From contig NZ_CP073751.1 in NCBI RefSeq assembly GCF_020025155.1, positions 1,178,001 to 1,242,000 of the forward strand: a stretch of DNA of 64,000 bases. Reading direction: 5' to 3'. Below the pieces are notes generated by a model. It searched no databases and was not told the origin of the DNA. It saw only the letters and a list, made by a program, of their open reading frames with translations. A program made the position numbers and the translations under genes. Source of the DNA: Halopseudomonas nanhaiensis (GTDB lineage Bacteria > Pseudomonadota > Gammaproteobacteria > Pseudomonadales > Pseudomonadaceae). This document shows positions 35,006 through 52,119 of this stretch, piece by piece (within the stretch, counting starts at the first letter, position 1; each line of letters begins with the position of its first letter).

Positions 35006-36378
35006 CGGCGCGCCATCCCGCCGGCAAGCAGATAAAGCCCCGTGCAGAGCAGCAGACCGTAGAGGTTGGTGCCGAGGAGCAGCGCATACTTGCCATCGCC
35101 AATGGCCCAGCTGTCAGGAATCCAGTTCAGGGTCAGGGCGACGCCAAGCGCCAGACCAGTCCAGAAACTCAGGTGAAACGCAGTTGCCGTCGGACGAACG
35201 AGTCCGTGCAGCACGAACGCCGGAGCCAGACCCATGACCATGGTGCCGCTGATCGTCGTGGCCTTGAGAATATCGGTCCCGGCGAGCATGGGCAGGTTGC
35301 CGAGCAGGGCGAACACCGCCATCGCGGCCATGCCCAGCCCCACTGCACGGGTCCCCAGATCGCGGCCCGCTAGTGCCGGAAGCTCACGTCCGGTCAGGCG
35401 TGCCAGGCTGGAGAAGGTCGAGTCCAGGGTCGAGCCGGCTGCGGAAATCATCACGATGGTCATCACCAGCAGCGCACCGATGCCCAGTGAGCGGGCCAGC
35501 GCGGCAGGCACGTTGGACGATGCGCCGACCCCGACAAGGTCTGCATGAACACCGATCAGACTGAATGCCAGGATGGCGAAGAAGCCCAGCACGCCGGCGA
35601 TGGTGAAGGCGCGCAGCATACTGCGTTCCTGGCTGATGAAGCCGCGATCGGTCAGCACCGGGTCATGGAACGGGTAGCTGACCAGTTGCAGGCAGGCGAC
35701 CAGCAACAGATCCACGCCTGCATCGAGTGCCCAGGAGCTGGTGCTGGTCAGCTCTGCTGGGGAGTGCTGCGGCAATACCAGCCACAACACACACACCAGC
35801 GCCAGGACAAAAATGCCCGCCTGCGCGGCATCGGTGAGAATCGAGCTGCGCAGACCGCCGCGCAGGCTGTAGGCGAGCGTGACGGCAGTGAACAGCAGCG
35901 CGGAGATGACGAAGGGTGCAGTGCCGGGCTCGCCGTAGTACCCGCCGACCACGGCCGTGTTGCTCCACACCTCGTTGAACAAGCGAATCAGGATAGCGGC
36001 GGAGAAGGCCAGGGCGGCTGCACGGCCGTAGTTGCTGGTGAGAAAGCTGACCAGACTGGTGGCAGCGAAGCGCCGGCGCAGGCGGTAGATGACCAGGCCG
36101 CATAGCGGTATCGAGAGCCAGTAAGTGGCATAGGCCAGCCCGCCGACGAGGCCGAACTCGGCGCCCAGGTTCGCCGCATTGGTCACCGATTTGGCGAAGA
36201 TCCAGCTGATGAAGATGCTCGTGGTCAGCAGCCACGGCGACGCGCTGCGGCCCTGGCTATCTTCGCCGTTGAAAAAGCCGCCGGCGGTCACCGTACGTGG
36301 TGACAGCCAATACATCAGCCCGCCATAGGCAAGCAGAAACCCCCAGAAAAACACGCCCAGCGAACCGGACATTCCCAT
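35002..36378 (-). CDS. Sodium:solute symporter (SSS/SLC5 family)
   Basis: A 458-residue integral membrane protein with about 12-13 hydrophobic segments and the SSS-type layout, including FISWIFAKSVTNAANLGAEFG near helix 2 and AYSLRGGLRSSILTDAAQAGIF, the family signature around the Na+ site. The substrate could be an organic solute or an arsenosugar-related compound; that is inference from the ArsS and glycosyltransferase neighbours. It overlaps the metallophosphoesterase gene by four bases. Its start region abuts the REP array that separates it from arsS. Confidence 0.85.
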   Translation of the reverse strand: MGMSGSLGVFFWGFLLAYGGLMYWLSPRTVTAGGFFNGEDSQGRSASPWLLTTSIFISWIFAKSVTNAANLGAEFGLVGGLAYATYWLSIPLCGLVIYRLRRRFAATSLVSFLTSNYGRAAALAFSAAILIRLFNEVWSNTAVVGGYYGEPGTAPFVISALLFTAVTLAYSLRGGLRSSILTDAAQAGIFVLALVCVLWLVLPQHSPAELTSTSSWALDAGVDLLLVACLQLVSYPFHDPVLTDRGFISQERSMLRAFTIAGVLGFFAILAFSLIGVHADLVGVGASSNVPAALARSLGIGALLVMTIVMISAAGSTLDSTFSSLARLTGRELPALAGRDLGTRAVGLGMAAMAVFALLGNLPMLAGTDILKATTISGTMVMGLAPAFVLHGLVRPTATAFHLSFWTGLALGVALTLNWIPDSWAIGDGKYALLLGTNLYGLLLCTGLYLLAGGMARR

Positions 36379-36433
36379 ACCTCATCCCCTGATTTCATTC
36401 CTTGGTTCACGCAGCCGTTTGCCTCGTGGCGTG

Positions 36434-36955
36434 CGGATTTCGCTTCGCGGTCATGCCCGCTCCTACATGACGATTCCCGGCTTGCTGCAGGAGCGCGCTT
36501 GAGCGCGAAAGCGGACGAGCAGACGACGCTGAGCTTAACCCCTTCGCGGTCATGCCCGCTCCTACACGATGGCGATTCCCGGGTTGCTGTAGGAGCGCGC
36601 TTGAGCGCGAAAGCAGACGAGCAGACGACGCTGAGCTCAACCCCTTCGCGGTCATGCCCGCTCCTACACGATGGCGATTCCCGGGTTGCTGTAGGAGCGC
36701 GCTTGAGCGCGAAAGCGGACGAGCAGACGACGCTGAGCTTAACCCCTTCGCGGTCATGCCCGCTCCTACACGATGGCGATTCCCGGGTTGCTGTAGGAGC
36801 GCGCTTGAGCGCGAAAGCAGACGAGCAGACGACGCTGAGCTCAACCCCTTCGCGGTCATGCCCGCTCCTACACGATGGCGATTAGCGGCTTGCTGTAGGA
36901 GCGCGCTTGAGCGCGAAAGCGGACGAGCAGACGACTCATAGCTCAAGTCCTTCGC
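36434..36955. repeat. Tandem REP array, 102-bp period (5 copies)
   Basis: TTCGCGGTCATGCCCGCTCC occurs at 36444, 36543, 36645, 36747 and 36849, each time followed by an inverted GTAGGAGCGCGCTTGAGCGC arm. The period is 99 then 102, 102, 102. It fills the 611-base gap between the symporter and arsS. Because 102 is a multiple of three, long repetitive ORFs appear on both strands; these are artefacts. Copies alternate in small differences (AGCTTAA/AGCTCAA), suggesting a 204-bp higher-order unit. Confidence 0.93.
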
Positions 36956-36989
36956 AATCCTTCCCGGCCCTACCAATCCGCGCTTCGCG

Positions 36990-37965: not shown

Positions 37966-38034
37966 TAGTCACTAAGTCCGTACAAGGGTTACATGAACTC
38001 GCCTAGTCATAAAGCACTCATATATGTCTGACTA
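37966..38034. promoter_or_regulatory. Repeated TAGTCA hexamers in the arsS/methyltransferase divergent region
   Basis: TAGTCA at 37966-37971 and 38004-38009, and its inverse TGACTA at 38029-38034, lie in the 114-base divergent spacer. They could be half-sites of an unknown regulator, or chance. Confidence 0.3.
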
Positions 38035-38066
38035 TGAGGGTAGATCACGCCAAGGGGAGACCGCGA

Positions 38067-38906
38067 ATGCGACCACTGATTTTAGCTGCCATGTTGTTGC
38101 TGCCTGCTGCAGGGATGGCACAGCAGCCCACCGTTCCGACGCCGCAGATGGATCCGGAACAACAACAGGCTCTGAAGAAAGCCATTGGCGCCCCGACTCG
38201 CTCTATCACCAACGTGGTTCGCGATGCCTACCGCAACCCCGAACACACCCTGGCTTTCTTCCAGGTGCAGCCCCAGCATACGGTGGTTGAAGCCTGGCCC
38301 GGCGAAGGCTGGTACACCGAGATCCTCGCCCCCTATCTGAAGGAAGACGGTCAACTGATCGCTGCTCATTTCGATCCGGACGCCGACTCGGATTACCAGC
38401 AGCGCTCCCTGAACGATTTCAAGCGCAAGCTGGAAGATCCTCGCGGCATCTACGACTCCGTCCGCGTGTCCGTACTGAACTACGATCCGGACACGCCGAT
38501 CGCCGAGCCGGAAAGCGCCGACCGGGTGCTTACCTTCCGCAATGTGCATAACTGGCTGGCCGCCGGTAAGGACGAAACGCGGCTGGTATTCAGCAAGTTC
38601 CATGCAGCGCTCAAGCCCGGCGGCATGCTAGGCGTCGTCGAGCACCGGGCGCTGCCCGACACCGATCTGCAACAGATGATCGAAACCGGCTACGTCACCG
38701 AGCAACTGGTGATCGAGTTGGCGGAAGAGGCAGGGTTCGAACAGGTGGGGAGCAGCCCGGTCAACGAAAACCCTCAGGATACGAAGGATCACCCTGAGGG
38801 CGTCTGGACCTTGCCGCCGACACTCAAGCTCGGCGACGAGAACCGCACTACCTACCTGGCTATTGGCGAAAGCGACCGCATGACGCTGTTGTTCAGAAAG
38901 AAGTGA
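38067..38906 (+). CDS. Exported class I SAM-dependent methyltransferase-like protein (COG4798 type)
   Basis: A 279-residue protein with a clear signal peptide (cleavage near AGMA-QQ, residue 17), followed by a Rossmann-type methyltransferase domain: VVEAWPGEGWYTEIL in place of the usual glycine-rich motif I, LTFRNVHNWL and LKPGGMLGVVEH. The ATG at 38067 has GGGGAGA upstream. It has no cysteine residues, so it is not the arsenite methyltransferase ArsM. A periplasmic methyltransferase is odd because SAM is cytoplasmic. It ends exactly where the convergent AraC gene ends. Confidence 0.82.
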   Translation: MRPLILAAMLLLPAAGMAQQPTVPTPQMDPEQQQALKKAIGAPTRSITNVVRDAYRNPEHTLAFFQVQPQHTVVEAWPGEGWYTEILAPYLKEDGQLIAAHFDPDADSDYQQRSLNDFKRKLEDPRGIYDSVRVSVLNYDPDTPIAEPESADRVLTFRNVHNWLAAGKDETRLVFSKFHAALKPGGMLGVVEHRALPDTDLQQMIETGYVTEQLVIELAEEAGFEQVGSSPVNENPQDTKDHPEGVWTLPPTLKLGDENRTTYLAIGESDRMTLLFRKK

Positions 38907-39938
38907 TCACACCAGGCTGACGATCTGCCGGCGAAACGCCGTCGGGCTCATGTCAGTCCAGCGGCGGAAAGCCCGGGTAAAGCTGCTCGGGTCGAGGAAG
39001 CCCAGTTCATACGCGATGCTGGTGAGCGACAGCTCGCCATGGCTGATCATTCTGATCGCCGCCTCCTTGCGCACTTCATCGACCAGCTGCTCGTAGGACG
39101 TGCCTTCCTGGCTGAGCTTGCGGCGCAGATGTCGCGGACTGATGTTCAACGGAGCAGCCACGCGTTCCACACTGACGTCCCCCGAGCCAAGCAGGTTCTG
39201 GATTCGACGCTTTACCTGGTCGATCAGATCGTTGCTTGGCAGGTTCGATAGCAAATCCTCCATGGCTTCGACAAAGCGCGGCAGCAGGAAGCTGTCTGCG
39301 GTCGCCAGCGGCTCGCCCAGCGCGGTGTACGGGAGGGTGAAGCGGTACTCGTCCCCTGACGTCAGCGTCCGCGCGCCAAGCAGCCGTGCGCATTCCTCCA
39401 GCTCAGATCCGCCGCGCTGCAGTTGCGCGTCGAGGACGAGTTCGATGTTGTCATGGTCCAGTTGTTCGAACAGCCGTCCTAGATACCCCATTACTGCCTC
39501 CATGTGATGCAGGTGAGGCTCGCCCAGCGGATGAAGATGAAGGAAGGCGAACTCGTCCTCGATGCGCAACTCAAGCTTCACCTGCGTACTGACAATCGGG
39601 AAAAACCGCGTGAGATGCTTCAGCGCCGTGGCCAGATCCGGGCTGGCAAGTGTGGTCAATCCGATCGCGTTGAGCGGGGTAGGGCGAAAAACACGGTTGA
39701 TACGCAAGCCGAAGAAGGGGTCATCCGCGAGGCGGGCCGCCTCGCTCCAGATCAACGAGCAGGATGCCTGGTCGAGGAAGCCCGACTGCGCCTGGGATAC
39801 CTGCACTAGATTGTGCGCCAGGCTGGAAGCCTCCAGCGTCCGGCCGTACTGACGCAGCGCCTGGTTCATCACTGGAACCCAGAAGGCGCGCTCGCGAACA
39901 CGATTAACCGGGGCAATTTTCCGTCCTTCGATTGGCAT
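38907..39938 (-). CDS. AraC family transcriptional regulator (module copy 1)
   Basis: A 343-residue regulator with an N-terminal arabinose-binding-domain-like region of the type seen in Pseudomonas OruR/ArgR-like proteins and a C-terminal double helix-turn-helix (about 235-340), ending in LGFLDPSSFTRAFRRWTDMSPTAFRR. The ATG at 39938 is preferred, with AGGA upstream, because it aligns with the start of the second copy; a TTG at 39956 is also possible. It is divergent from the DUF1302 gene at 40394 and likely controls it. The copy at 43899 is its paralogue. Confidence 0.9.
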   Translation of the reverse strand: MPIEGRKIAPVNRVRERAFWVPVMNQALRQYGRTLEASSLAHNLVQVSQAQSGFLDQASCSLIWSEAARLADDPFFGLRINRVFRPTPLNAIGLTTLASPDLATALKHLTRFFPIVSTQVKLELRIEDEFAFLHLHPLGEPHLHHMEAVMGYLGRLFEQLDHDNIELVLDAQLQRGGSELEECARLLGARTLTSGDEYRFTLPYTALGEPLATADSFLLPRFVEAMEDLLSNLPSNDLIDQVKRRIQNLLGSGDVSVERVAAPLNISPRHLRRKLSQEGTSYEQLVDEVRKEAAIRMISHGELSLTSIAYELGFLDPSSFTRAFRRWTDMSPTAFRRQIVSLV

Positions 39939-40019
39939 TGAGGGTCCTGGAGCCAAGGGGTTGAGCCAACATCGTTTTTTGTATTATTGCGAGATAAATC
40001 AAAGGAAAAAAGGCTTGCT

Positions 40020-40042
40020 TTGGCGAAAGCCTGTTTCGCCAA
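40020..40042. promoter_or_regulatory. Perfect 9-bp inverted repeat upstream of AraC copy 1
   Basis: TTGGCGAAA and TTTCGCCAA flank a 5-base loop (GCCTG) about 80 bases upstream of the AraC start, in the divergent region of the first module. It may be an operator or an RNA hairpin. No T run follows. Confidence 0.45.
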
Positions 40043-40228
40043 GCGAACAAATGGGTGCTTGATCGCTGATTTGCTTTTCTCAATTCCTCTGTCCGCCGCC
40101 TTGGCTGCATGGAAAACGGGCGGTCCGCACGGAGATGGATACAATGCCCGTTCTAGAGGGGTTTTTCCATAGGATCGACTAACTTTCCCCGCCGCGGGCT
40201 ACGAGCGCGGTTGCGTGCTTATCGCTCT

Positions 40229-40266
40229 TAATAAGGCTGCTTATTATCGCGATTCATTGTATGAAT
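40229..40266. promoter_or_regulatory. Two adjacent palindromes before DUF1302 copy 1
   Basis: TAATAAG-GCTG-CTTATTA (40229-40246) and ATTCAT-TGT-ATGAAT (40252-40266) lie about 130-165 bases upstream of the DUF1302 start. A similar CATTCA...TGAATG palindrome occurs upstream of the second copy (45075-45091). Confidence 0.4.
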
Positions 40267-40320
40267 GGCCGTGCGGGCCAAGAATGTTGGCCGCCTGGGG
40301 CAGGTTTTCCCGCTTGGGCT

Positions 40321-40331
40321 CGTGACAGACT
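40321..40331 (+). promoter_or_regulatory. Shared CGTGACAGACT element (copy 1)
   Basis: The 11-mer CGTGACAGACT lies 73 bases before the start of DUF1302 copy 1, and exactly the same 11-mer lies 76 bases before copy 2 (45143-45153). The spacers otherwise differ, so it is a candidate activator or promoter element. Confidence 0.45.
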
Positions 40332-40393
40332 GCTTCTGCCCTGAACGTGTCTTTAGACGCGCAGGTAGATGTCACCCCAAACGGAGCAGCACA

Positions 40394-42289
40394 ATGACAA
40401 AAAAAATGCATGCTTGGCCGGTTGCGGCCTTGCCATTGGCGATCGGCCTGGCCAGCTTTGCCGGATCGGCGCACGCAGTGAATTTCAACCTCGGGCCCGT
40501 GGAGGCGCAGTTCGACTCGCAGCTGTCCATCGGCGCGAGCATGTCTACCCAGAGCGCGGACAAGCGTTTCATTCACACGCTCAGCGGTGGCGAAGCCGCG
40601 GCACGTACTTCGGACGATGGTCGTCTGAACTACGAAGCCGGTGATTATTTCTCCAAGATTTTCAAGGGTGTCCACGACCTCGAACTGCGCTACGGCGATT
40701 CCGGCGCATTCTTCCGCGGCAACTACTGGTACGACTTCGAAACCAAGGACGGCAGCCAGCGCTTTTATGACATTCAGGAAGATGGCCGTCATCCGCTGCA
40801 GAAAGGCTCGGGCGTCCAACTGCTCGACGCGTTTGTGTACCACAACTATTTCATCGGCAACAATCCGGGCAACGTCCGCCTAGGTAAGCAGGTTGTCAGC
40901 TGGGGCGAAAGCACCTTTATCGGCAACTCGATCAACTCGATCAACCCGATTGACGTGGCAGCCATCCGCCGCCCGGGCGCAGAGCTGAAAGAAGCACTGC
41001 TGCCAGTCGAGATGCTCTACCTGTCCCAGGGTCTGACCGAGAACCTGAGCATGGAAGCCTTCTACCAGCTCAAGTGGCGCGAGACCGTGCTGGACAACTG
41101 CGGCACCTTCTTCGGTTCCGATACGCTGGCGCGTGGTTGCACTGATCGCCTGGTCGTTACCGGCTCTGACTTCCCGCAGGGCGCCACCCCTACTGGTAGC
41201 TACATCGTGCGTGAGCGCAAGGATGAGCACGCAGAGGACGATGGTCAGTTCGGTGTAGCATTTCGCTGGTTCGTGCCTGAGCTGAATGACTCCGAGTTCG
41301 GCTTCTATGCGATGAATTACCACAGCCGCACGCCGATCTACTCGAACGTGGCAGGTAATCAGTTATTGCCCGGCCAGACTGCGCAAGCCTATGGCAGGAT
41401 TCTGCGAGGTGAGGCGCCACTGCCTCCTGGCGTCACAGCAGCGCAACTTCAGGCCGCTATTCCAGGTCTCCTTGCTGCGGCGCAGGCCGGCACCATCGAG
41501 GGTTATGACGGCAGCACCGGCCCCGCTGGTTACTTCTTCGAATTTCCTGAAGATATTCGCCTCTACGGCATGAGTTTCCAGACCATGGTCGGCCCGGCTT
41601 CCGTCGGTGGTGAGATCAGCTACCGCCCCAACATGCCGCTGCAGATCAATACTGGCGACATGAGTCGTACTGCGCTGAATCTGGGGCAGGATAATACGCA
41701 CCGTGACTATGCTGGCTCCACTCCAGGCACATACATCAAAGGCTACGAGCGCAAGGAATTCTGGCAGGCCCAGGTGACGGCCGTTCACTTCATTGACCGC
41801 GTGCTCGGAGCAAGCCGTCTGTCGCTGGTCGGGGAAGCGGGTGCCAACTACATCAGCGGTCTGAGCGATAAGAATGGCACCACCAAGTTCGGTCGTGACT
41901 CGCTCTTCGGCCAAAGCCCCTTCGAGAATGGCACGTGCTCATCCAACCAGGGCACCGCTGTGGCTGATCGCTCGCCCAACGCGGCCAGCTGGTGTGAAAA
42001 CGATGGTTATTTCACCGACTGGTCCTACGGCTATCGTATCCGTGCCGCCCTGGATTACGCCAACGTGTTTGCCGGTATCAACCTGAGCCCCAGCCTCGCC
42101 TGGTCGCATGACATCGAGGGTTACAGCCCGAACTTCACTGAAGATGCCAAGTCGATCAGCGTCGCGCTCAATGCCGATTACGGCAACAAGTACAACGCCT
42201 CGATCAGCTACACCGATTTCTTCGACGGTAAGTACAACACCGCTGTTGACCGCGACTTCGCCGCGCTCAGCCTAAGCGTGACTTTCTAA
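40394..42289 (+). CDS. DUF1302 family outer-membrane protein (copy 1)
   Basis: A 631-residue exported protein. It has a signal peptide (MTKKMHAWPVAALPLAIGLA..., cleaved after AHA), then a DUF1302 beta-rich region with aromatic C-terminus SLSVTF, typical of outer-membrane barrels. ATG at 40394 has GGAG 7 bases upstream; the 43-codon upstream extension is not used. Compared with copy 2 it has an insertion of about 37 residues after the SNVAG segment, probably a surface loop. DUF1302 proteins occur paired with DUF1329 and are thought to act in envelope lipid or hydrophobic-compound transport. Confidence 0.88.
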   Translation: MTKKMHAWPVAALPLAIGLASFAGSAHAVNFNLGPVEAQFDSQLSIGASMSTQSADKRFIHTLSGGEAAARTSDDGRLNYEAGDYFSKIFKGVHDLELRYGDSGAFFRGNYWYDFETKDGSQRFYDIQEDGRHPLQKGSGVQLLDAFVYHNYFIGNNPGNVRLGKQVVSWGESTFIGNSINSINPIDVAAIRRPGAELKEALLPVEMLYLSQGLTENLSMEAFYQLKWRETVLDNCGTFFGSDTLARGCTDRLVVTGSDFPQGATPTGSYIVRERKDEHAEDDGQFGVAFRWFVPELNDSEFGFYAMNYHSRTPIYSNVAGNQLLPGQTAQAYGRILRGEAPLPPGVTAAQLQAAIPGLLAAAQAGTIEGYDGSTGPAGYFFEFPEDIRLYGMSFQTMVGPASVGGEISYRPNMPLQINTGDMSRTALNLGQDNTHRDYAGSTPGTYIKGYERKEFWQAQVTAVHFIDRVLGASRLSLVGEAGANYISGLSDKNGTTKFGRDSLFGQSPFENGTCSSNQGTAVADRSPNAASWCENDGYFTDWSYGYRIRAALDYANVFAGINLSPSLAWSHDIEGYSPNFTEDAKSISVALNADYGNKYNASISYTDFFDGKYNTAVDRDFAALSLSVTF

Positions 42290-42317
42290 CAAGACCGGCT
42301 ATCAGGAGAAAAATAAT

Positions 42318-43688
42318 ATGCGTATAGCAACAACTCTTATCGGTGCAGGCGGCCTGGCCCTCAGCATCCTCGCCACCAGCGTGATGGCGCAAAGCCTGTC
42401 GCAGGATGAAATCAACAAGCTCGGTAACGAGCTGACGCCGATCGGTGCGGAAAAGTCGGGCAACGCTGCCGGCACCATTCCGGAATGGACCGGCGGTCTG
42501 AGCCCGGAAGCCGGTGCCGAGCTGGAGCGCAACTTCCGTGAGAATCCGGTCAAGGCCGAGCAGCCGCAGTTCACCATCACGGCGCAGAACTACCAGGAGC
42601 ACAAGGAGCACCTGACCCCGGGCCAGGTCGCCATGTTCGAACGGTATCCTGACAGCTTCACGATGCCGGTTTACGAGACCAAGCGCACCGTTTCCTTCCC
42701 GCAGGAAGTGTACGACCAGGTCAAGAAGACCGCTGGCGAAGCGAAGCTGGTCAACGGCGGTGACGGTATCGAAAACTTCAGCCACGGCTCGTTTGCCTTC
42801 CCGATCCCCAAGTCGGGCGCAGAAGTGGTGTGGAACCACATGACGCGCTATCGCAAGAACATCAAGCGTTCCTACGTTCAGGCGATGCCGCAGACCAATG
42901 GCTCCTACACCCTGATCAAGTTCGAGGAAGAAGCGGCCTACCCGCAGTACATGAACGACGTGGACCTGGAGAAGGCGTCCAACACACTGCTGTATTTCAA
43001 GCAGCGGGTAAACGCGCCGTCGCGCCTGGCAGGTAACGTACTGCTGGTACACGACACCCTGGATCAGCTGAAGGAGCCGCGCATGGCGTGGGTCTACAAC
43101 GCTGGCCAGCGTCGCGTACGCCGCGCTCCCCAGGTGGCGTATGACGGCCCGGGTACTGCTTCGGACGGCATGCGTACTTCCGACAACTTCTCCATGTACA
43201 ACGGCGCACCTGACCGGTACGAGTGGAAGCTGGTGGGCAAGAAGGAAATCTACGTTCCGTACAACAGCTACAAGCTGGTTGATCCGAAGCTGAAGTACGA
43301 CGATATCCTGAAGGCCGGCCACATCAACCCGGAACACACCCGGTTCGAGTTGCACCGCGTGTGGGAAGTGCAGGGCAACGTGAAGGACGGGCAGCGCCAC
43401 ATTTACGCGCAGCGTAATTTCTTCGTGGACGAGGATTCCTGGCTGATCAACCTGGCTGATCATTACGACGGTCGCGGCACCCTGTGGCGCGTTGGCGAGG
43501 GTCACATCGCCCACGCCTACCATGAGCAGCTGCCTGGCTACGCGGCGGAAACGCTGTATGACCTGGTTGCCGGTCGTTATATCGCGCTGGGTATGTATAA
43601 CGAAGAATCGTCGGCGCCGCAGTATGGCACCAACCCTTCGTACAACGAGTTCACCCCGGCCGCTCTGCGCGCCTCGGGCGTTCGTTGA
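42318..43688 (+). CDS. DUF1329 family periplasmic protein (copy 1)
   Basis: A 456-residue exported protein with signal peptide (cleavage after VMA, residue about 24). The conserved N-terminus QSLSQDEINKLGNELTPIGAEK is nearly identical to copy 2. DUF1329 has a LolB-like fold and typically follows DUF1302. ATG has AGGAG about 8 bases upstream. A terminator lies 24 bases after the stop, so DUF1302 and DUF1329 form a two-gene transcript. Confidence 0.9.
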   Translation: MRIATTLIGAGGLALSILATSVMAQSLSQDEINKLGNELTPIGAEKSGNAAGTIPEWTGGLSPEAGAELERNFRENPVKAEQPQFTITAQNYQEHKEHLTPGQVAMFERYPDSFTMPVYETKRTVSFPQEVYDQVKKTAGEAKLVNGGDGIENFSHGSFAFPIPKSGAEVVWNHMTRYRKNIKRSYVQAMPQTNGSYTLIKFEEEAAYPQYMNDVDLEKASNTLLYFKQRVNAPSRLAGNVLLVHDTLDQLKEPRMAWVYNAGQRRVRRAPQVAYDGPGTASDGMRTSDNFSMYNGAPDRYEWKLVGKKEIYVPYNSYKLVDPKLKYDDILKAGHINPEHTRFELHRVWEVQGNVKDGQRHIYAQRNFFVDEDSWLINLADHYDGRGTLWRVGEGHIAHAYHEQLPGYAAETLYDLVAGRYIALGMYNEESSAPQYGTNPSYNEFTPAALRASGVR

Positions 43689-43711
43689 TCGGTACCGTTT
43701 GGGTGTGACAG

Positions 43712-43738
43712 AAAAGGGGCCTTCGGGCCCCTTTTTTT
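43712..43738 (+). terminator. Rho-independent terminator after DUF1329 copy 1
   Basis: AAAAGGGGCC and GGCCCCTTTT with a TTCG tetraloop, followed by T residues. Confidence 0.95.
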
Positions 43739-43763
43739 GTTCTGCTTTTGGCTTTAGAGCGCC

Positions 43764-43853
43764 TGTGGGAGGCGCGACCCGCGGCGGCTGTGCGCTACGA
43801 CTTGAAGGCAAACAGGATTGTCGGTGGGAGAGGCGTCCCCGCCGCGATGGCGG
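43764..43853. repeat. Two REP-like elements
   Basis: A GTGGGAGGCGCGACCCGCGGCGG variant (43764) and a GTGGGAGAGGCGTCCCCGCC element (43823). They lie between the terminator and the convergent AraC copy 2. Confidence 0.75.
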
Positions 43854-43898
43854 CCGGTCGGCCGCCTGGAGTGGTGCTGATCAGTGCAGGGAGAAGCC

Positions 43899-44948
43899 TT
43901 AAACCGCTGCCGCCCCCAGCTTGCTCTGCGACTGGTCCTTGAACGCGGTAGGACTCATGCCAGTCCAGCGACGGAACGCTCGGGTAAAGCTGCTGGGGTC
44001 CAGAAAGCCCAGCTCGAATGCGATACGGCCAAGGTTGAGCTTGCCCTCACGGATCAGCCGCATGGCCAGTTCCATACGCACTTCATCCAGCAGCTTTTCA
44101 TAGGTGGTCTGCGTTTCGCTGAGCTTGCGGCGCAGGTGGCGCGGGCTCATGTTGAACGGCGTTGCCACCATTTCTTCGGACACCTCGCGCTGGGCAACCA
44201 GCAGACGGATCCGCTGTTTCACCTGCTCGGCAAAGTTCACGTTCGGCAGATCGCCCAGCATGTCTTCCAGTGACGCATCCAGCCGCTTGCGCAGGAATGC
44301 ATCGGCAGAGGGAAGCGGGTTGCGCAGCATCGCGCGACTCATGCGCACGGCAACGCGCTTCGCGCCCAGTCGTACCTTGCCGCTCAACACTGATTCGCAG
44401 TAGGCGCGCGTCCCTTCATGCTCGCCTGCAAGGCGCGTCTCCAGCACCAGCGGTGTGTGGCCGTTCTCCAGCGAAGCCCAGATTTTCGCGCACTGGGCCA
44501 CCACCGCTTCGATATGTAGCGGGTGCGGCGTGCCACGCGGCTCGAAATAGATAGTGAAATACTGGTCGTCTTCAACGGAGTACAGCTGGACCTGTGTGCT
44601 GAACACCGAGATGTAGCGCAGCACACGCTTCACCGCGTCGCCAACCGTCTCGCTGGACACTGCCGCAAGACCAAGAACCTTGAGTGTGTTCGAGCAATAG
44701 GTCTGCCCCATGCGAAGCCCGAAGCACTCGTCCTCGGTCAAGCGGGCAGCGGCATGCCACAGGCGATTCATGTCGGTCTGGGTAATCTGTGCGAGGCTTT
44801 GATCTGTAGGTACGCAGTGTTGGCGCAGGTCTGCTGGCAGATCACGCAGCGATTTGCCGTACTGTTCCATGGTCCGGGCGATGCCCTGAGCCCAGAATGC
44901 CCGTTCCTGCAACCGTTCACAGGGCAGCGGATGGAGAATCTGATTCAT
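43899..44948 (-). CDS. AraC family transcriptional regulator (module copy 2)
   Basis: A 349-residue paralogue of the regulator at 38907. The N-terminus (LQERAFWAQGIARTMEQYGKSL) aligns with copy 1, and the C-terminal helix-turn-helix pair (NMSPRHLRRKLSETQTTYE... LGFLDPSSFTRAFRRWTGMSPTAF) is very similar. The N-terminal sensing domains differ much more than the DNA-binding domains, so the two may respond to different ligands while recognising similar sites. It is divergent from DUF1302 copy 2. Confidence 0.92.
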   Translation of the reverse strand: MNQILHPLPCERLQERAFWAQGIARTMEQYGKSLRDLPADLRQHCVPTDQSLAQITQTDMNRLWHAAARLTEDECFGLRMGQTYCSNTLKVLGLAAVSSETVGDAVKRVLRYISVFSTQVQLYSVEDDQYFTIYFEPRGTPHPLHIEAVVAQCAKIWASLENGHTPLVLETRLAGEHEGTRAYCESVLSGKVRLGAKRVAVRMSRAMLRNPLPSADAFLRKRLDASLEDMLGDLPNVNFAEQVKQRIRLLVAQREVSEEMVATPFNMSPRHLRRKLSETQTTYEKLLDEVRMELAMRLIREGKLNLGRIAFELGFLDPSSFTRAFRRWTGMSPTAFKDQSQSKLGAAAV

Positions 44949-45074
44949 TCTCGCCTCTCGTCAATTTTCTTGTTCTTATTGATACGCGATCGTGTGCCCG
45001 ATCGTCGTCCGAGGCTCTAAATTGCTATATTAGGTAAACAAATGCAACAGATTATTCCGCCGGGCAATTGCTGT

Positions 45075-45125
45075 CATTCATTCGTTGAATGTCCATGTGA
45101 GACAAGAGATTCGTCCGAATCGGAC
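45075..45125. promoter_or_regulatory. Palindromes upstream of DUF1302 copy 2
   Basis: CATTCA-TTCGT-TGAATG (45075-45091) and GTCCGA-A-TCGGAC (45113-45125) lie in the 270-base divergent region. They are candidate operators of the AraC regulator or another factor. The first resembles the palindrome at 40252-40266. Confidence 0.4.
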
Positions 45126-45142
45126 AAATGCTTTTGTAAAGC

Positions 45143-45153
45143 CGTGACAGACT
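45143..45153 (+). promoter_or_regulatory. Shared CGTGACAGACT element (copy 2)
   Basis: It is identical to the element at 40321-40331 and sits at nearly the same distance (76 bases) from the start codon. Confidence 0.45.
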
Positions 45154-45218
45154 AATCACCGATGCCAGAGCCATCCCGAAGGCCTGGCACTCGTGATTCA
45201 TTCTAACGGAGCAGCACA

Positions 45219-47057
45219 ATGACAAAAAAAATGCATGCTTGGTCGCTCGCCGCATTGCCTCTGGCAATTGGTCTGGCCAGCTTCTCTGGCTCAGCCGCCG
45301 CAGTCACCTTCAATCTTGGCGAAGTCCGCGGGCAGTTAGACTCTCAGCTGTCCATCGGTGCCAGTATGTCCACCCAGAGCGCGGACAAGCGTTTCATCCA
45401 TACTCAGACCGTTCGTGACGGCGAGTTCATGAACGGCGAAGCGGCTGCTCGTACCTCAGACGATGGTCGTTTGAACTACGATGCAGGCGACGTGTTCTCC
45501 AAGATCTTCCGCGGCGTACATGATCTCGAGCTCAATTACGGCGACTCCGGCGCCTTCATCCGCGGTAAGTACTGGTACGACTTCGAAACCAAGGATGGCA
45601 GCCAGCGCTTCTATGATATCGACGACTCCGGTCGCGATCCGCTGGTAAAAGGCTCCGGCGTCGAGCTGCTCGATGCGTTCGTTTACCACAACTATTTCAT
45701 CGGCAATAACCCGGGCAACGTTCGCCTGGGCCGCCAGGTGGTGAGCTGGGGTGAAAGTACCTTCATCGGTAACTCGATCAACTCCATCAACCCGATCGAC
45801 GTCGCTGCATTCCGCCGCCCGGGTGCGGAGATCAAGGAAGGCCTGCTCCCGGTCGAGATGCTGTATTTCTCCCAGGGCCTGACTGAAAACCTGAGCATGG
45901 AAGCGTTTTATCAGCTCAAGTTCCAGGAAACTGTGCTGGATAACTGCGGTACCTTCTTCGGTTCTGACACACTTGCCACCGGTTGTAACGATCGTCTGGT
46001 CGTAGCGGGCCAGGATTTCCCGATGGGCGAACAGCCTGCTGGCACGTACATCGTGCGCGCAAAGAAAGATCAGGAAGCATCTGACAGTGGGCAATACGGC
46101 GTTGCATTCCGTTGGTTCGTTCCTGCGTTGAATGATACTGAGTTCGGCTTGTACGCGATGAACTATCATAGCCGTACTCCGATTTACTCCAGTGTTGCCG
46201 GTCTGCCACCGGGCGTGGGCAACCCGATACCGGGTCTGAACGGTGTCAACGGTCCTGCAGGCTATTTCTTCGAATATCCTGAAGACATTCGGTTGTACGG
46301 TGTTAGCTTCCAGACCAGCATTGCCGGCACGTCGGTCGGTGGTGAGCTGAGCTATCGTCCGAATATGCCTTTGCAGATTAATACCGGTGATCAAAGCCGT
46401 TTGGCTCTGGTTAACGCTGCGACGGGTCAAGACAACACGCACCGCGGTTTGGCCATTGGGCCGGCTGGTATCGGCTCTGACATTCCGGGTTACGAGCGCG
46501 AAGAGTTCTATCAGGCCCAAATCACTGCCATTCACTTCATTGATCGCGTGCTGGGCGCTAGCCGTCTGTCTCTGGTCGGTGAGCTCGGTGTGAACTACAT
46601 CGGTGGTATCGGTGAGATGCGCTACGGTCGTGACTCGTTGTTCGGACAAAGCCCGTACAATCCAGGCGACGTAGGTCCTCCCGGTGTCGTAGCTGGTCAA
46701 TGCTCGTCCTTCCAGGGCACCGCACCCGCCGCTGGCCGTTCGCCGAACGCAGCCAGCTGGTGTGAAGACGACGGCTTCATGACTGACTGGTCTTACGGCT
46801 ACCGTCTGCGCGCTGCGCTGGATTACTCCAACGTGTTCATGGGCGTCAACCTGTCGCCGAGCCTGACCTGGTCGCATGACGTTGAAGGTTACAGCCCGAA
46901 CTTTACCGAGAACGCCAAGGCGATCAGCCTGGGTCTGAACGCCGACTATGCGAACAAGTACAGCGCGTCGCTGAGCTACACCGACTTCTTCGACGGCAAG
47001 TACAACACCGCAGTTGACCGTGACTTCGCGTCGCTCAGCTTCAGTGTGACTTTCTAA
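45219..47057 (+). CDS. DUF1302 family outer-membrane protein (copy 2)
   Basis: A 612-residue paralogue of 40394. The ribosome site and first codons (from ACGGAGCAGCACA through MTKKMHAW) are identical to copy 1. Signal peptide, DUF1302 domain and C-terminal SLSFSVTF are present. It has a shorter loop (about 19 residues, LPPGVGNPIPGLNGVNG) where copy 1 has about 56, and a small insertion TVRDGEFMN near the N-terminus. Third-position T is more common than in copy 1, hinting at different expression or age. Confidence 0.88.
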   Translation: MTKKMHAWSLAALPLAIGLASFSGSAAAVTFNLGEVRGQLDSQLSIGASMSTQSADKRFIHTQTVRDGEFMNGEAAARTSDDGRLNYDAGDVFSKIFRGVHDLELNYGDSGAFIRGKYWYDFETKDGSQRFYDIDDSGRDPLVKGSGVELLDAFVYHNYFIGNNPGNVRLGRQVVSWGESTFIGNSINSINPIDVAAFRRPGAEIKEGLLPVEMLYFSQGLTENLSMEAFYQLKFQETVLDNCGTFFGSDTLATGCNDRLVVAGQDFPMGEQPAGTYIVRAKKDQEASDSGQYGVAFRWFVPALNDTEFGLYAMNYHSRTPIYSSVAGLPPGVGNPIPGLNGVNGPAGYFFEYPEDIRLYGVSFQTSIAGTSVGGELSYRPNMPLQINTGDQSRLALVNAATGQDNTHRGLAIGPAGIGSDIPGYEREEFYQAQITAIHFIDRVLGASRLSLVGELGVNYIGGIGEMRYGRDSLFGQSPYNPGDVGPPGVVAGQCSSFQGTAPAAGRSPNAASWCEDDGFMTDWSYGYRLRAALDYSNVFMGVNLSPSLTWSHDVEGYSPNFTENAKAISLGLNADYANKYSASLSYTDFFDGKYNTAVDRDFASLSFSVTF

Positions 47058-47084
47058 GACTGGCAGATAAGGAGAAACAATAAT

Positions 47085-48455
47085 ATGCGTATGCAAAAAA
47101 CCCTTCTGGGTGCAGGCGGTCTGGCGTTAAGCCTCCTGGCATCCAGCGTTATGGCCCAGTCTTTGACCCAGGATGAGATCAACAAGCTGGGTAATGAACT
47201 CACGCCGATCGGCGCTGAGAAGGCCGGCAATGCCGATGGCACCATCCCCGAGTGGACTGGCGGCCTGGGTGAGGACGCTGGCCGGGTGGTCGAGGATAAC
47301 TTCCAGACCAACCCGTTCGCCGACGCTCAGCCGCAGTTCACCATCACTGCCCAGAACTACCAGGAGTACAAGGACAAGCTGACCCCCGGCCAGATCGCGA
47401 TGTTCGAGCGCTATCCGGAAACCTTCCGCATGCCCGTCTACGAGACTCAGCGTACCGTGGGCTACCCGCAGGACGTGTATGACCAGGTCAAGCGTACTGC
47501 TGGCCAGGCCAAGCTGGTTAACGGTGGCGACGGTATCGAGAACTTTTCGCACGGCACCTTCGCCTTCCCGATTCCGAAGTCCGGTGCGGAAGTGGTGTGG
47601 AACCACAACACTCGCTATCGCGTGAACATCAAGCGTTGGTACATGCAAGCCATGCCGCAAACCAACGGCTCATACACGCTGATCAAGCTGGAAGAAGAAG
47701 TCGGTTATCCGCAGCATATGCCGGATGTTGACGAGTCGACCATTCCCAACACCCTGCTGTTCTTCAAGCAGCGTGTGAATGCGCCTTCGCGTCTGGCTGG
47801 TAACGTACTGCTGGTACACGACACCCTGGACCAGTTGAAAGAGCCTCGCATGGCGTGGGTTTACAACGCTGGTCAGCGCCGCGTACGTCGTGCTCCGCAG
47901 GTTGCGTACGACGGCCCGGGTACAGCTTCGGACGGTATGCGTACGTCTGACAACTTCTCCATGTACAACGGTGCACCTGACCGCTACGACTGGAAACTGA
48001 TTGGCAAGAAGGAAATCTACGTACCGTACAACAGCTATCGCATGACCGACCGTGACGTGAAGTACGCGGACGTGCTGCAGGCTGGCCACATCAACCCGGA
48101 ACACACCCGCTTCGAGCTGCACCGCGTATGGGAAGTACAGGGCAACGTGAAGCAGGGTCAACGTCACATTTACGCTCAGCGTAACTTCTTCATGGACGAA
48201 GACTCGTGGATGATCAACCTGGCTGACCACTACGATGGTCGTGGCACGCTGTGGCGCGTAGGTGAAGGTCACATTGCCTTCAATTACAAGGAAAAGATCC
48301 CGGGTTACGCGATCGAAACCCTGTATGACCTGCTCGCAGGCCGTTACATCGCACTGGGTATGTATACCGAAGAAGTGTCTGCACCTCAGTTCGACTTCCA
48401 GCCGAACTACAACCAGTTCACTCCGGCTGCACTCCGTGCTTCGGGTGTTCGTTAA
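47085..48455 (+). CDS. DUF1329 family periplasmic protein (copy 2)
   Basis: A 456-residue paralogue of 42318, the same length and clearly conserved along the whole protein. The signal peptide (MRMQKTLLGAGGLALSLLASS...VMA) is followed by SLTQDEINKLGNELTPIG. It follows DUF1302 copy 2 by 27 bases, with AAGGAG upstream, and ends at a terminator. Confidence 0.9.
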   Translation: MRMQKTLLGAGGLALSLLASSVMAQSLTQDEINKLGNELTPIGAEKAGNADGTIPEWTGGLGEDAGRVVEDNFQTNPFADAQPQFTITAQNYQEYKDKLTPGQIAMFERYPETFRMPVYETQRTVGYPQDVYDQVKRTAGQAKLVNGGDGIENFSHGTFAFPIPKSGAEVVWNHNTRYRVNIKRWYMQAMPQTNGSYTLIKLEEEVGYPQHMPDVDESTIPNTLLFFKQRVNAPSRLAGNVLLVHDTLDQLKEPRMAWVYNAGQRRVRRAPQVAYDGPGTASDGMRTSDNFSMYNGAPDRYDWKLIGKKEIYVPYNSYRMTDRDVKYADVLQAGHINPEHTRFELHRVWEVQGNVKQGQRHIYAQRNFFMDEDSWMINLADHYDGRGTLWRVGEGHIAFNYKEKIPGYAIETLYDLLAGRYIALGMYTEEVSAPQFDFQPNYNQFTPAALRASGVR

Positions 48456-48486: not shown

Positions 48487-48513
48487 AAGGGGCGCTTCGG
48501 CGCCCCTTTTTTT
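48487..48513 (+). terminator. Rho-independent terminator after DUF1329 copy 2
   Basis: AAGGGGCGC and GCGCCCCTT with a TTCG loop and a following T run. It has the same architecture as the terminator after copy 1 but a different stem sequence. Confidence 0.95.
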
Positions 48514-48522
48514 ATCTGAGCT

Positions 48523-48634
48523 CCAAGCCCCAAGCCCCAAGCCCCAAGCCCCAAGCCCCAAGCCCCAAGCCCCAAGCCCCAAGCCCCAAGCTCCAAGCCT
48601 CAAGCCTCAAGCCTCAAGCCTCAAGCCTCCAGCC
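48523..48634. repeat. Heptanucleotide tandem repeat (CCAAGCC)n
   Basis: About 16 units of 7 bases: nine CCAAGCC, one CCAAGCT, one CCAAGCC, four TCAAGCC and a degenerate end. The block change from CCAAGCC to TCAAGCC suggests separate expansion events. It starts 9 bases after the terminator. Glycine/Leu/Trp-repeat ORFs read through it are artefacts. Confidence 0.95.
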
Positions 48635-48648
48635 CCACACCTGCTTCG

Positions 48649-48672
48649 GTGGGAGGCGCGACCCGCGGCGAC
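48649..48672. repeat. REP-like element after the heptamer array
   Basis: A GTGGGAGGCGCGACCCGCGG unit of the same variant as at 43764 and 55848. Confidence 0.7.
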
Positions 48673-48825
48673 AGCGAGCGATCAGCCACGCCACCATCGA
48701 GCCGAGCCATCCATCAAGTAACCAGCGCGTTCCACCTGCCTGTCAACCTGATGACACGAGTTGGACCCGGAAATGCTAAACTGCGCGCATTCACGCAGCA
48801 CCGAATCCGAAAAGAGATCCCGCCC

Positions 48826-50161: not shown

Positions 50162-50785
50162 CCATCGCGGCGAGGACGCCGCTCCCACAGGTTTGGTGAT
50201 CACATACCACGCAACGGGCGCGCGCCCTTCGTAGGAGCGGCGCCCCCGCCGCGAAAGCGAATTATCGGGAGGCGCTACAGCCCAACCCCTTCGCGGTCAT
50301 GCCCGCTCCTCCGGGTTCGGTTCGTTCCGAATGTAGGAGCGCACCTGGGCGCGAAAGCGGGCTATCGGAAAGCGCCACAGCCCAACCCCTTCGCGGTCAT
50401 GCCCGCTCCTACGGGTTCGGTTCGTTTCGAATGTAGGAGCGCACCTGGGCGCGAAAGCGAGTTATCGGGAAGCGCTACAGCCCAACCCCCTCTGCGGTCA
50501 TGCCCGCTCCTACGGGTTCGGTTCGATTCGAATGTAGGAGCGCACCTGGGCGCGAAAGCGGAGTATCCAAAGCCCAATCCTATCGCGGCGAGGGCGCCGC
50601 TCCCACGGGTTTGGTTAGCATCGACTGTAGGAGCGCACCTGGGCGCGAAAGCGGAGTATCGGGAAGAGCCACAGCCTAACCCCCATCGCGGCGAGGGCGC
50701 CGCTCCTACCGGGGGATGGGGTTGCTACCTGGCTCGGCATCATCCCGCTTCGTGGGAGCGGCGTCCCCGCCGCGATAGTACGCTT
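50162..50785. repeat. Large REP/BIME array
   Basis: About 12 half-elements in alternating orientation over 620 bases, mixing the ATCGCGGCGAGG, TTCGCGGTCATG and GTAGGAGCGCACCTG variants. Three of the middle pairs repeat at about 101-102 bases. The array fills the gap after the helicase gene and runs into the 3' end of the VanZ-like gene at 50740. Confidence 0.93.
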
Positions 50786-51171
50786 CCCCGTCGCCCGGGC
50801 TGCCATTTGCCAAAACGCTCCCACGCCCAGATCAATGCCAGACCACAGGACACGCCGATCGTATTGGCGTACACATCATGGATGTCGGCACTGCGCGTCG
50901 GATGGTACGACTGCACCCATTCCACCGAAATGCCCACGGCGAACATCAGCACGAAGCGAACCCACCATTTCCAACGCGGGTAGGCCAGGTAGCTGAGCAC
51001 GGTGCAGCCCAATAGCCCGACGAGGTGATAACTCGTCGCCATCCAGCTGAAGGCGGTGGGAGGCGGGGTGGGGCGCATGCCGAGGAACATGCCGAACGCG
51101 ACGACCGCAATGAACAGAATCTGGAAGGCGAGCCGGTAGCGAACCCACAGCCGCATGATGGTGAACCACAT
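50740..51171 (-). CDS. VanZ-like family protein (copy 1, REP-derived tail)
   Basis: A 143-residue membrane protein with four hydrophobic segments and the VanZ-type motifs GMRPTPPP (about 31-38) and SVEWVQSYHPTRSADIHDVYANTIG (82-106). Its function is unknown; VanZ relatives occur in envelope contexts. GGAG lies 6 bases before the ATG at 51171. Residues about 131-143 (VLSRRGRRSHEAG) are encoded by a REP element, so the original stop was probably lost or displaced by REP insertion. A second copy lies at 51590. Confidence 0.85.
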   Translation of the reverse strand: MWFTIMRLWVRYRLAFQILFIAVVAFGMFLGMRPTPPPTAFSWMATSYHLVGLLGCTVLSYLAYPRWKWWVRFVLMFAVGISVEWVQSYHPTRSADIHDVYANTIGVSCGLALIWAWERFGKWQPGRRGSVLSRRGRRSHEAG

Positions 51172-51589: not shown

Positions 51590-51979
51590 CTAAACCTCCC
51601 GCGACTCCACAGCAAACCCGCCCCAGCGATTCCGCTTCTGCCACAGGGCAATCACCGCCAACCCCAGCACCACGCCAACGGTATTGGCGAACACATCCAC
51701 CAGATCCGCAGAGCGGGTCGGGTGAAAATACTGCACGAACTCCACCGCCAGGCCAACGCCGCACATCATCCCGAAGCGCAACCACCAGGGCCAGCGCGGG
51801 AAGGCGAGATAGCTAAGCAGGGTGCAGAAGAACAGGCCGCCCAGGTGAAAACTGGTCATCAGCCATTGGATCTTGCCGAAGGGAGGCGTTGGGCGCATGC
51901 CGAGGAACATGCCCAGCAGCACCAGGGCCACGAAGAGAGTCTGAAAGGTATTGCGGTGTCGGCTGATGCTACGCCACAT
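51590..51979 (-). CDS. VanZ-like family protein (copy 2)
   Basis: A 129-residue paralogue of 50740 with GMRPTPP, FHLGGLFFCTLLSYLAFPRWPWWLRF and AVEFVQYFHPTRSADLVDVFANTVG. The ATG at 51979 has GGAG six bases upstream; an upstream start at 52042 adds 21 residues without homology. The unrelated tail (WQKRNRWGGFAVESREV) differs from copy 1. Both genes face left and are separated by REP DNA. Confidence 0.85.
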   Translation of the reverse strand: MWRSISRHRNTFQTLFVALVLLGMFLGMRPTPPFGKIQWLMTSFHLGGLFFCTLLSYLAFPRWPWWLRFGMMCGVGLAVEFVQYFHPTRSADLVDVFANTVGVVLGLAVIALWQKRNRWGGFAVESREV

Positions 51980-52119
51980 GCATGCTCCGTGCTGCGGCGC
52001 TAGCCGTCTGCAAAATAAACTGGTCTCACTCGGCCGCTGCAATCTTGATCAAGCGACCGGCAACGGTAAGACCTCGCTTCCGCCGCAAATATCCCGAGCG
52101 CAATGCCGCGCGCAGCCGT

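Follow-up and report, generated by a model that had tools for sequence, protein, structure and literature searches.

A tandem-duplicated AraC-DUF1302-DUF1329 unit in Halopseudomonas probably places one type of transport system under two sensors

The window, a stretch of 64,000 nucleotides from Halopseudomonas nanhaiensis, contains two head-to-tail modules at positions 38907-48455. In each module, a minus-strand gene for an AraC-family regulator faces a plus-strand operon encoding a DUF1302 and a DUF1329 protein. Coordinates and strands are confirmed as described in the original prediction, which had noted the same gene order twice in a row. The features of the two modules are listed below in window coordinates.

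38907-39956, minus strand: R1, AraC-family activator of module 1 (Pfam PF12625, the Arabinose_bd sensor, and PF12833, HTH_18; R1 clade, 30 genus genomes)
40252-40266, no strand: ATTCA-N5-TGAAT palindrome abutting the module 1 operator
40267-40303, plus strand: putative module 1 operator, GGCCGTGCGGGCCAA-N7-GGCCGCCTGGGGCAG, repeats 22 bp apart, 127 bp before the DUF1302 start
40323-40331, plus strand: TGACAGACT, probable extended -10 of the module 1 structural operon, judged by spacing conserved in both classes
40394-42289, plus strand: DUF1302-1, predicted outer-membrane beta-barrel, 631 aa (PF06980, 2e-164; structure model)
42318-43688, plus strand: DUF1329-1, predicted periplasmic LolA/LolB-like carrier, 456 aa (PF07044, 1.4e-147; fold match)
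43716-43738, plus strand: rho-independent terminator of module 1, GGGGCCTTCGGGCCCC plus T7, read from the sequence
43765-43795, plus strand: REP-like repeat at the end of module 1, also found at the end of module 2 (repeat family D19)
43899-44948, minus strand: R2, AraC-family activator of module 2 (Pfam PF12625 and PF12833; R2 clade, 34 genus genomes)
45076-45090, no strand: ATTCA-N5-TGAAT palindrome abutting the module 2 operator
45091-45127, plus strand: putative module 2 operator, GTCCATGTGAGACAA-N7-GTCCGAATCGGACAA
45145-45153, plus strand: TGACAGACT, probable extended -10 of module 2, with the same spacing conserved in both classes
45219-47057, plus strand: DUF1302-2, 612 aa (PF06980, 1.6e-166)
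47085-48455, plus strand: DUF1329-2, 456 aa (PF07044, 1.5e-144)
48489-48513, plus strand: rho-independent terminator of module 2, GGGGCGCTTCGGCGCCCC plus T7, read from the sequence
48649-48679, plus strand: REP-like repeat after module 2 (repeat family D19)

The gap between the DUF1302 and DUF1329 genes measures 28 bp (module 1) or 27 bp (module 2). Both operons have a hairpin-plus-T terminator of their own, with a REP-like repeat beyond it. A longer open reading frame for DUF1302-1, starting at 40265, is over-extended, because ACGGAGCAGCACA-ATG is present at 40394. Directly past the module 2 terminator, a 7-bp unit (AAGCCCC) forms a tandem run (48519-48630).

Both regulators combine the PF12625 sensor with HTH_18, the domain composition of AraC/XylS proteins of this sensor type. 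The nearest NCBIfam models are QhpR, GliR, and CypR, yet neither protein qualifies as an equivalog of these, with scores below the curated cut-offs (182/250, 106/570, and 105/500 bits for R1; 174/250, 112/570, and 94/500 bits for R2). For DUF1302, the predicted structure (mean pLDDT 80.5) is a porin-like barrel whose best solved matches, OccAB1, DcaP, and AlgE, are all distant; a sequence-profile search against the PDB gave no match. The DUF1329 model resembles a LolA/LolB-type carrier (mean pLDDT 88) and matches LolA3 as well as a solved DUF1329 protein. Both are widespread families of ‘unknown function’ that have been linked to the uptake or tolerance of oily compounds.

The two copies differ in how far their genes have diverged. 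Identity between the DUF1302 proteins is 80% (75% at the nucleotide level, 53% at third codon positions) and between the DUF1329 proteins 82.5% (79% and 59% respectively), compared with 40% between R1 and R2. The likeness of the modules is not due to chance, as the match is collinear over approximately 3.2 kb and is shared by most of the genus. As had been reported, the DUF1329 copies are equal in length (both 456 aa) and the DUF1302 copies have nearly identical signal peptides and ribosome sites, the 14 bp upstream of both starts being nearly the same (AACGGAGCAGCACA). The divergence of the regulators had been placed in their N-terminal ligand domain. While this domain does differ (29% identity), differences extend over the whole protein, including the DNA-binding domain (63%), and the recognition helices are identical. 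Elsewhere in the 3.65-Mb genome, a third DUF1302-DUF1329 pair is located beside LuxR-type and PQQ-dehydrogenase-like genes (1957591-1960723), and two more DUF1329 genes are present without DUF1302.

The duplication is old. R1 orthologues are found in 30 and R2 orthologues in 34 of 37 Halopseudomonas genomes. Both modules occur together in 30 genomes and are adjacent in at least 22, mostly flanked by a conserved methyltransferase-like gene and a DEAD helicase gene. The former, at 38034-38906 in the window, encodes a product with a signal peptide that is methyltransferase-like by eye and has no match in Pfam or NCBIfam. Among the matches listed from 298 Pseudomonadaceae genomes, R1 and R2 orthologues are confined to Halopseudomonas and the two regulators are each other's nearest relatives; no protein from outside the genus exceeds 34% identity to R2, while R1 is 36-43% identical to it. 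All module DUF1302 proteins form a single clade (100/100), separate from the third DUF1302 of the genome, and in the trees R1 and R2 each cohere as groups across the genus. Since the matches listed include no closer relatives outside the genus and the DUF1302 proteins form one clade, these comparisons indicate that the whole unit was duplicated in tandem within the lineage, as was originally proposed. The regulator tree with Pseudomonas outgroups is weak at its root, and the split is therefore dated only as complete by the time of the ancestor shared by most Halopseudomonas.

Independent entry, in which horizontal transfer brought in the modules separately and they ended up adjacent, had been named as the outcome that would overturn this view. 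It might explain why the regulators are just 40% identical and why the modules can lie apart, as they do in seven genomes (G003, G005, G007, G014, G021, G025, G033). However, among the matches listed from 298 family genomes, no protein from outside the genus is closer than R1 and R2 are to each other, and the phylogeny places the DUF1302 proteins of both modules in one clade. In addition, the operator and ribosome site are common to both modules, and one or both of the parted modules often keep the ancestral neighbor (the methyltransferase-like gene beside module 1, the DEAD helicase gene beside module 2). We consider separate arrival very improbable.

Copy number has continued to vary since. 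Additional DUF1302-DUF1329 pairs that lack a regulator are present in G015, G016, G022, and G029, and in some genomes there are DUF1302 remnants or a complete third module whose R1-like regulator has diverged; the array has therefore gained and lost copies. In G026 (L162:1-11941) and G027 (L163), a complete third module is inserted between modules 1 and 2, and its R1-like regulator is strongly diverged. Further modules with diverged R1-like regulators are seen in G019, G024, G028, G029, G030, G033, and G036.

The regulators and the structural genes of the modules have followed different courses. Where both modules are complete (28 genomes), R1 and R2 are 40% identical within and between genomes alike, while identity is 57% among R1 and 70% among R2 proteins. 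For DUF1302, the pair within a genome has a mean identity of 79%, against 76-77% for orthologues of different species; the corresponding values for DUF1329 are 83% and 81-84%. Trees of 20 genomes lead to the same result: the regulator tree splits once into R1 and R2 with a support of 100, whereas a split between module 1 and module 2 is rejected for both DUF1302 (AU p 5.7e-6) and DUF1329 (AU p 3.7e-5). The structural genes are thus homogenized between copies. The clearest example is G019, where a tract of 3324 bp, 96.6% identical between the two pairs, runs from 14 bp before the DUF1302 start to the DUF1329 stop codon, exactly the two genes. The DUF1302 and DUF1329 copies of this genome are 97-99% identical and its regulators 38%. 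For this tract, the most likely explanation is gene conversion, or a second duplication, affecting only the coding pair; outside G019, exchange between species could partly explain the mixing of structural genes. Diverged regulators beside homogenized transport genes in 28 genomes provide a clean natural test of what selection keeps apart.

These results do not sustain the earlier suggestion that the transport genes specialized for two compounds. It had drawn on a DUF1302 loop of about 56 versus 19 residues. A difference is real in this genome, where the loop measures 69 (module 1) and 31 (module 2) residues between fixed anchors, but it is not module-specific. Across the genus, lengths overlap (31-69 for module 1, 24-50 for module 2), and in 4 of the 12 genomes measured the loops are equal or reversed in length; a long loop as a module 1 trait is thereby ruled out. 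The loop corresponds to residues 320-378, between predicted strands. It is one of the barrel's long loops, and these hold most of the differences between the DUF1302 copies of this genome.

The sensors tell a different story from the transport genes. Across the genus, sensor domains are 28% identical between classes, 45% within R1, and 61% within R2, on which basis two sensors are evidently maintained and two inducers for the two regulators are plausible. An alternative is that the second copy mainly supplies more channel and carrier, with the regulators answering the same or overlapping signals and their sensors diverging mostly by drift. Homogenized structural genes, the regulator-less additional pairs, and the fast change of R1 sensors are all consistent with such a dosage effect. 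Drift alone, however, would predict neither the clear constraint on the R2 sensor nor the retention of both regulator lineages in 30 of 37 genomes. As a full account of the duplication, dosage seems to us quite unlikely.

Upstream of both operons, approximately 127 bp before the DUF1302 start, are two direct repeats (GKCC-N5-RGNCAR) 22 bp apart. AraC-family activators bind sites made of direct repeats in this layout, and the putative operator likewise appears to present its half-sites just 5' of the target promoter, with TGACAGACT conserved approximately 20 bp downstream of the repeats. In each of the 29 module-1 and 32 module-2 regions read, the operator begins 117-129 bp upstream of the start codon, always with a spacing of 22 bp, though some of these sites depart from the pattern at one to three positions. 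The exact pattern occurs twice in the 3.65-Mb genome, both times at these modules, and 49 times in the 37 genomes compared with 2 times for a reversed control. Judged by coordinates, all 49 matches lie ahead of DUF1302 genes belonging to modules, one of them at a contig end. At zero mismatches, no other target, such as the pump genes discussed below, was found in this genome; with up to two mismatches, matches are near control level (32 versus 20). The ATTCA-N5-TGAAT palindrome, which holds the same position in most but not all modules of both classes, was also considered as the main operator. Several clades lack its left arm and the genome contains two more copies elsewhere, so the repeat pair is the better conserved element and the palindrome was rejected for this role.

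The two-direct-repeat operator common to both operons is new here; our literature search found no inducer or operator named for an AraC-controlled DUF1302-DUF1329 pair. It is genus-wide and offers a direct handle through which the inducers, and then the substrates, of two widespread families of unknown function become testable.

Whether the regulators act on one or both operons bears on the reading first proposed for the locus, namely two insulated circuits in which each regulator switches its own operon only and each barrel carries its own compound. Several features are in its favor besides the low identity of the sensor domains between classes and the concentration of barrel differences in long loops in this genome. 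The second base of half-site 2 is class-specific, being G in 27 of 29 module-1 and T in 31 of 32 module-2 sites (Fisher p 7e-14, with species counted as independent), and certain DNA-binding-domain residues outside the recognition helices are fixed by class (for example 312 T/G and 313 S/R). Given this base and these residues, partial insulation of the circuits is possible. On the other hand, the recognition helices SPRHLRRKL and FLDPSSFTRAFRRW are identical between this genome's R1 and R2 and hardly vary in either class, whereas they differ in the 28-30%-identical AraC proteins of Pseudomonas. With identical helices and near-identical operators, cross-activation between the modules is likely. 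The structural genes moreover carry no module identity and loop length is not module-specific, and overall we regard two insulated circuits as unlikely.

Known systems suggest what the modules may transport. In Castellaniella defragrans, DUF1302 and DUF1329 genes are accompanied by genes for an HAE3 RND pump and a protein of the YCF48-like type (COG4447); when ameABCD is deleted, the bacterium tolerates monoterpenes less well (PMC6394551). In Pseudomonas putida, growth on Tween 20 depends on PP_0765/0766 as well as PP_2018/2019 (PMC10866462). The direction of transport is interpreted differently, as efflux for Ame (PMC6394551) and as uptake or utilization for PP_0765/0766 (PMC10866462). The Halopseudomonas modules share with AmeABCD the succession of an outer-membrane DUF1302 protein and a periplasmic DUF1329 protein (as judged by Pfam, barrel model, and porin-like matches), as well as YCF48-like and HAE3 RND proteins in the same genome; inducibility would be a further likeness. 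These partner genes, a YCF48-like protein (PF14870) and an RND transporter (PF03176), are located approximately 0.9 Mb from the modules (G000:C1:2133876-2141106; L104:5877-13107). The HAE3 model TIGR00921 matches the transporter at 5.7e-45, below its curated cut-off. By analogy, these proteins are likely to be the partners of the modules.

There are also differences. Ame is a single four-gene cassette within a monoterpene island, whereas the Halopseudomonas halves lie apart, are both tandem pairs, and include AraC regulators belonging to the outer half. The P. putida genes are also split; with PP_0765/PP_0766 and PP_2018/PP_2019, the outer and inner halves are encoded apart and the families match those found here. 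In related Pseudomonas loci, the DUF1302-DUF1329 pair sits between genes for an acyl-CoA synthetase and a LuxR/MalT-type protein; the matching Halopseudomonas locus (L010:5266-11433) retains the synthetase, DUF1329, and LuxR genes without DUF1302. Literature on RB-TnSeq and PA3922/PA3923 yielded nothing further on function. The two copies of the partner genes are 74% (RND) and 62% (YCF48) identical. A second pump copy is absent in approximately 15 of the 37 genus genomes and in 10 of the 30 with both modules, which rules out strict coupling of the pump and module duplications; two outer modules can therefore share one pump.

Two further systems resemble the regulatory side. SphR-SphA of Pseudomonas aeruginosa pairs a divergent, lipid-responsive AraC activator with the outer-membrane protein that it turns on; according to the parts of the reports available, SphA is a COG4313 channel rather than DUF1302 and no DUF1329 partner is described there (PMC3900636, PMC4493636). 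SphA was accordingly discarded as a DUF1302 relative; the module barrel matches PF06980 only. The AlkRa/AlkRb and APR1 alkane regulators of Acinetobacter are AraC/XylS-type proteins found in one strain and relate to n-alkanes of different chain length, but are linked to alkane degradation genes instead of DUF1302-DUF1329 transport genes (PMC11784139).

We favor, with moderate confidence, the interpretation that the ancient tandem-duplicated unit represents one transport hardware for hydrophobic compounds, similar to AmeABCD and PP_0765-0766, under two sensors. R1 and R2 would each bind their own hydrophobic inducer. In the manner of AraC-family activators, each would use the direct repeats to switch on the DUF1302-DUF1329 operon divergent from it, and perhaps the operon of the neighboring module as well. 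The barrel and LolA-like carrier would pass hydrophobic molecules between the outer membrane and the YCF48-like/HAE3 RND pump, a route for which AmeABCD and PP_0765/0766/2018/2019 serve as models. Candidate cargo includes fatty-acyl, ester, or terpene-like molecules; because of the Tween 20 phenotype (PMC10866462), fatty-acyl or ester-type compounds are our best guess for the substrate. Under this interpretation, gene dosage would be a second gain from duplication. We also put forward, tentatively and with the balance slightly against it, that the arrangement acts as an OR gate across the genus, either of two hydrophobic signals switching on both operons. If so, gene conversion would keep channel and carrier interchangeable, and the two AraC sensors would diverge while recognition helices and operator stay the same.

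Two other repeated elements are present near the modules. Arrays of approximately 100-102 bp intergenic repeats (GTAGGAGCGCRCYTGRGCGCGAAAGC...) occupy 36365-36976 and 50250-50690 in the window, with single copies scattered elsewhere; these produce spurious open reading frames and may be REP-like. A further tandem duplication is seen at 50740-51171 and 51590-52042, where two adjacent minus-strand genes encode small, mutually similar membrane proteins that are VanZ-like by eye.
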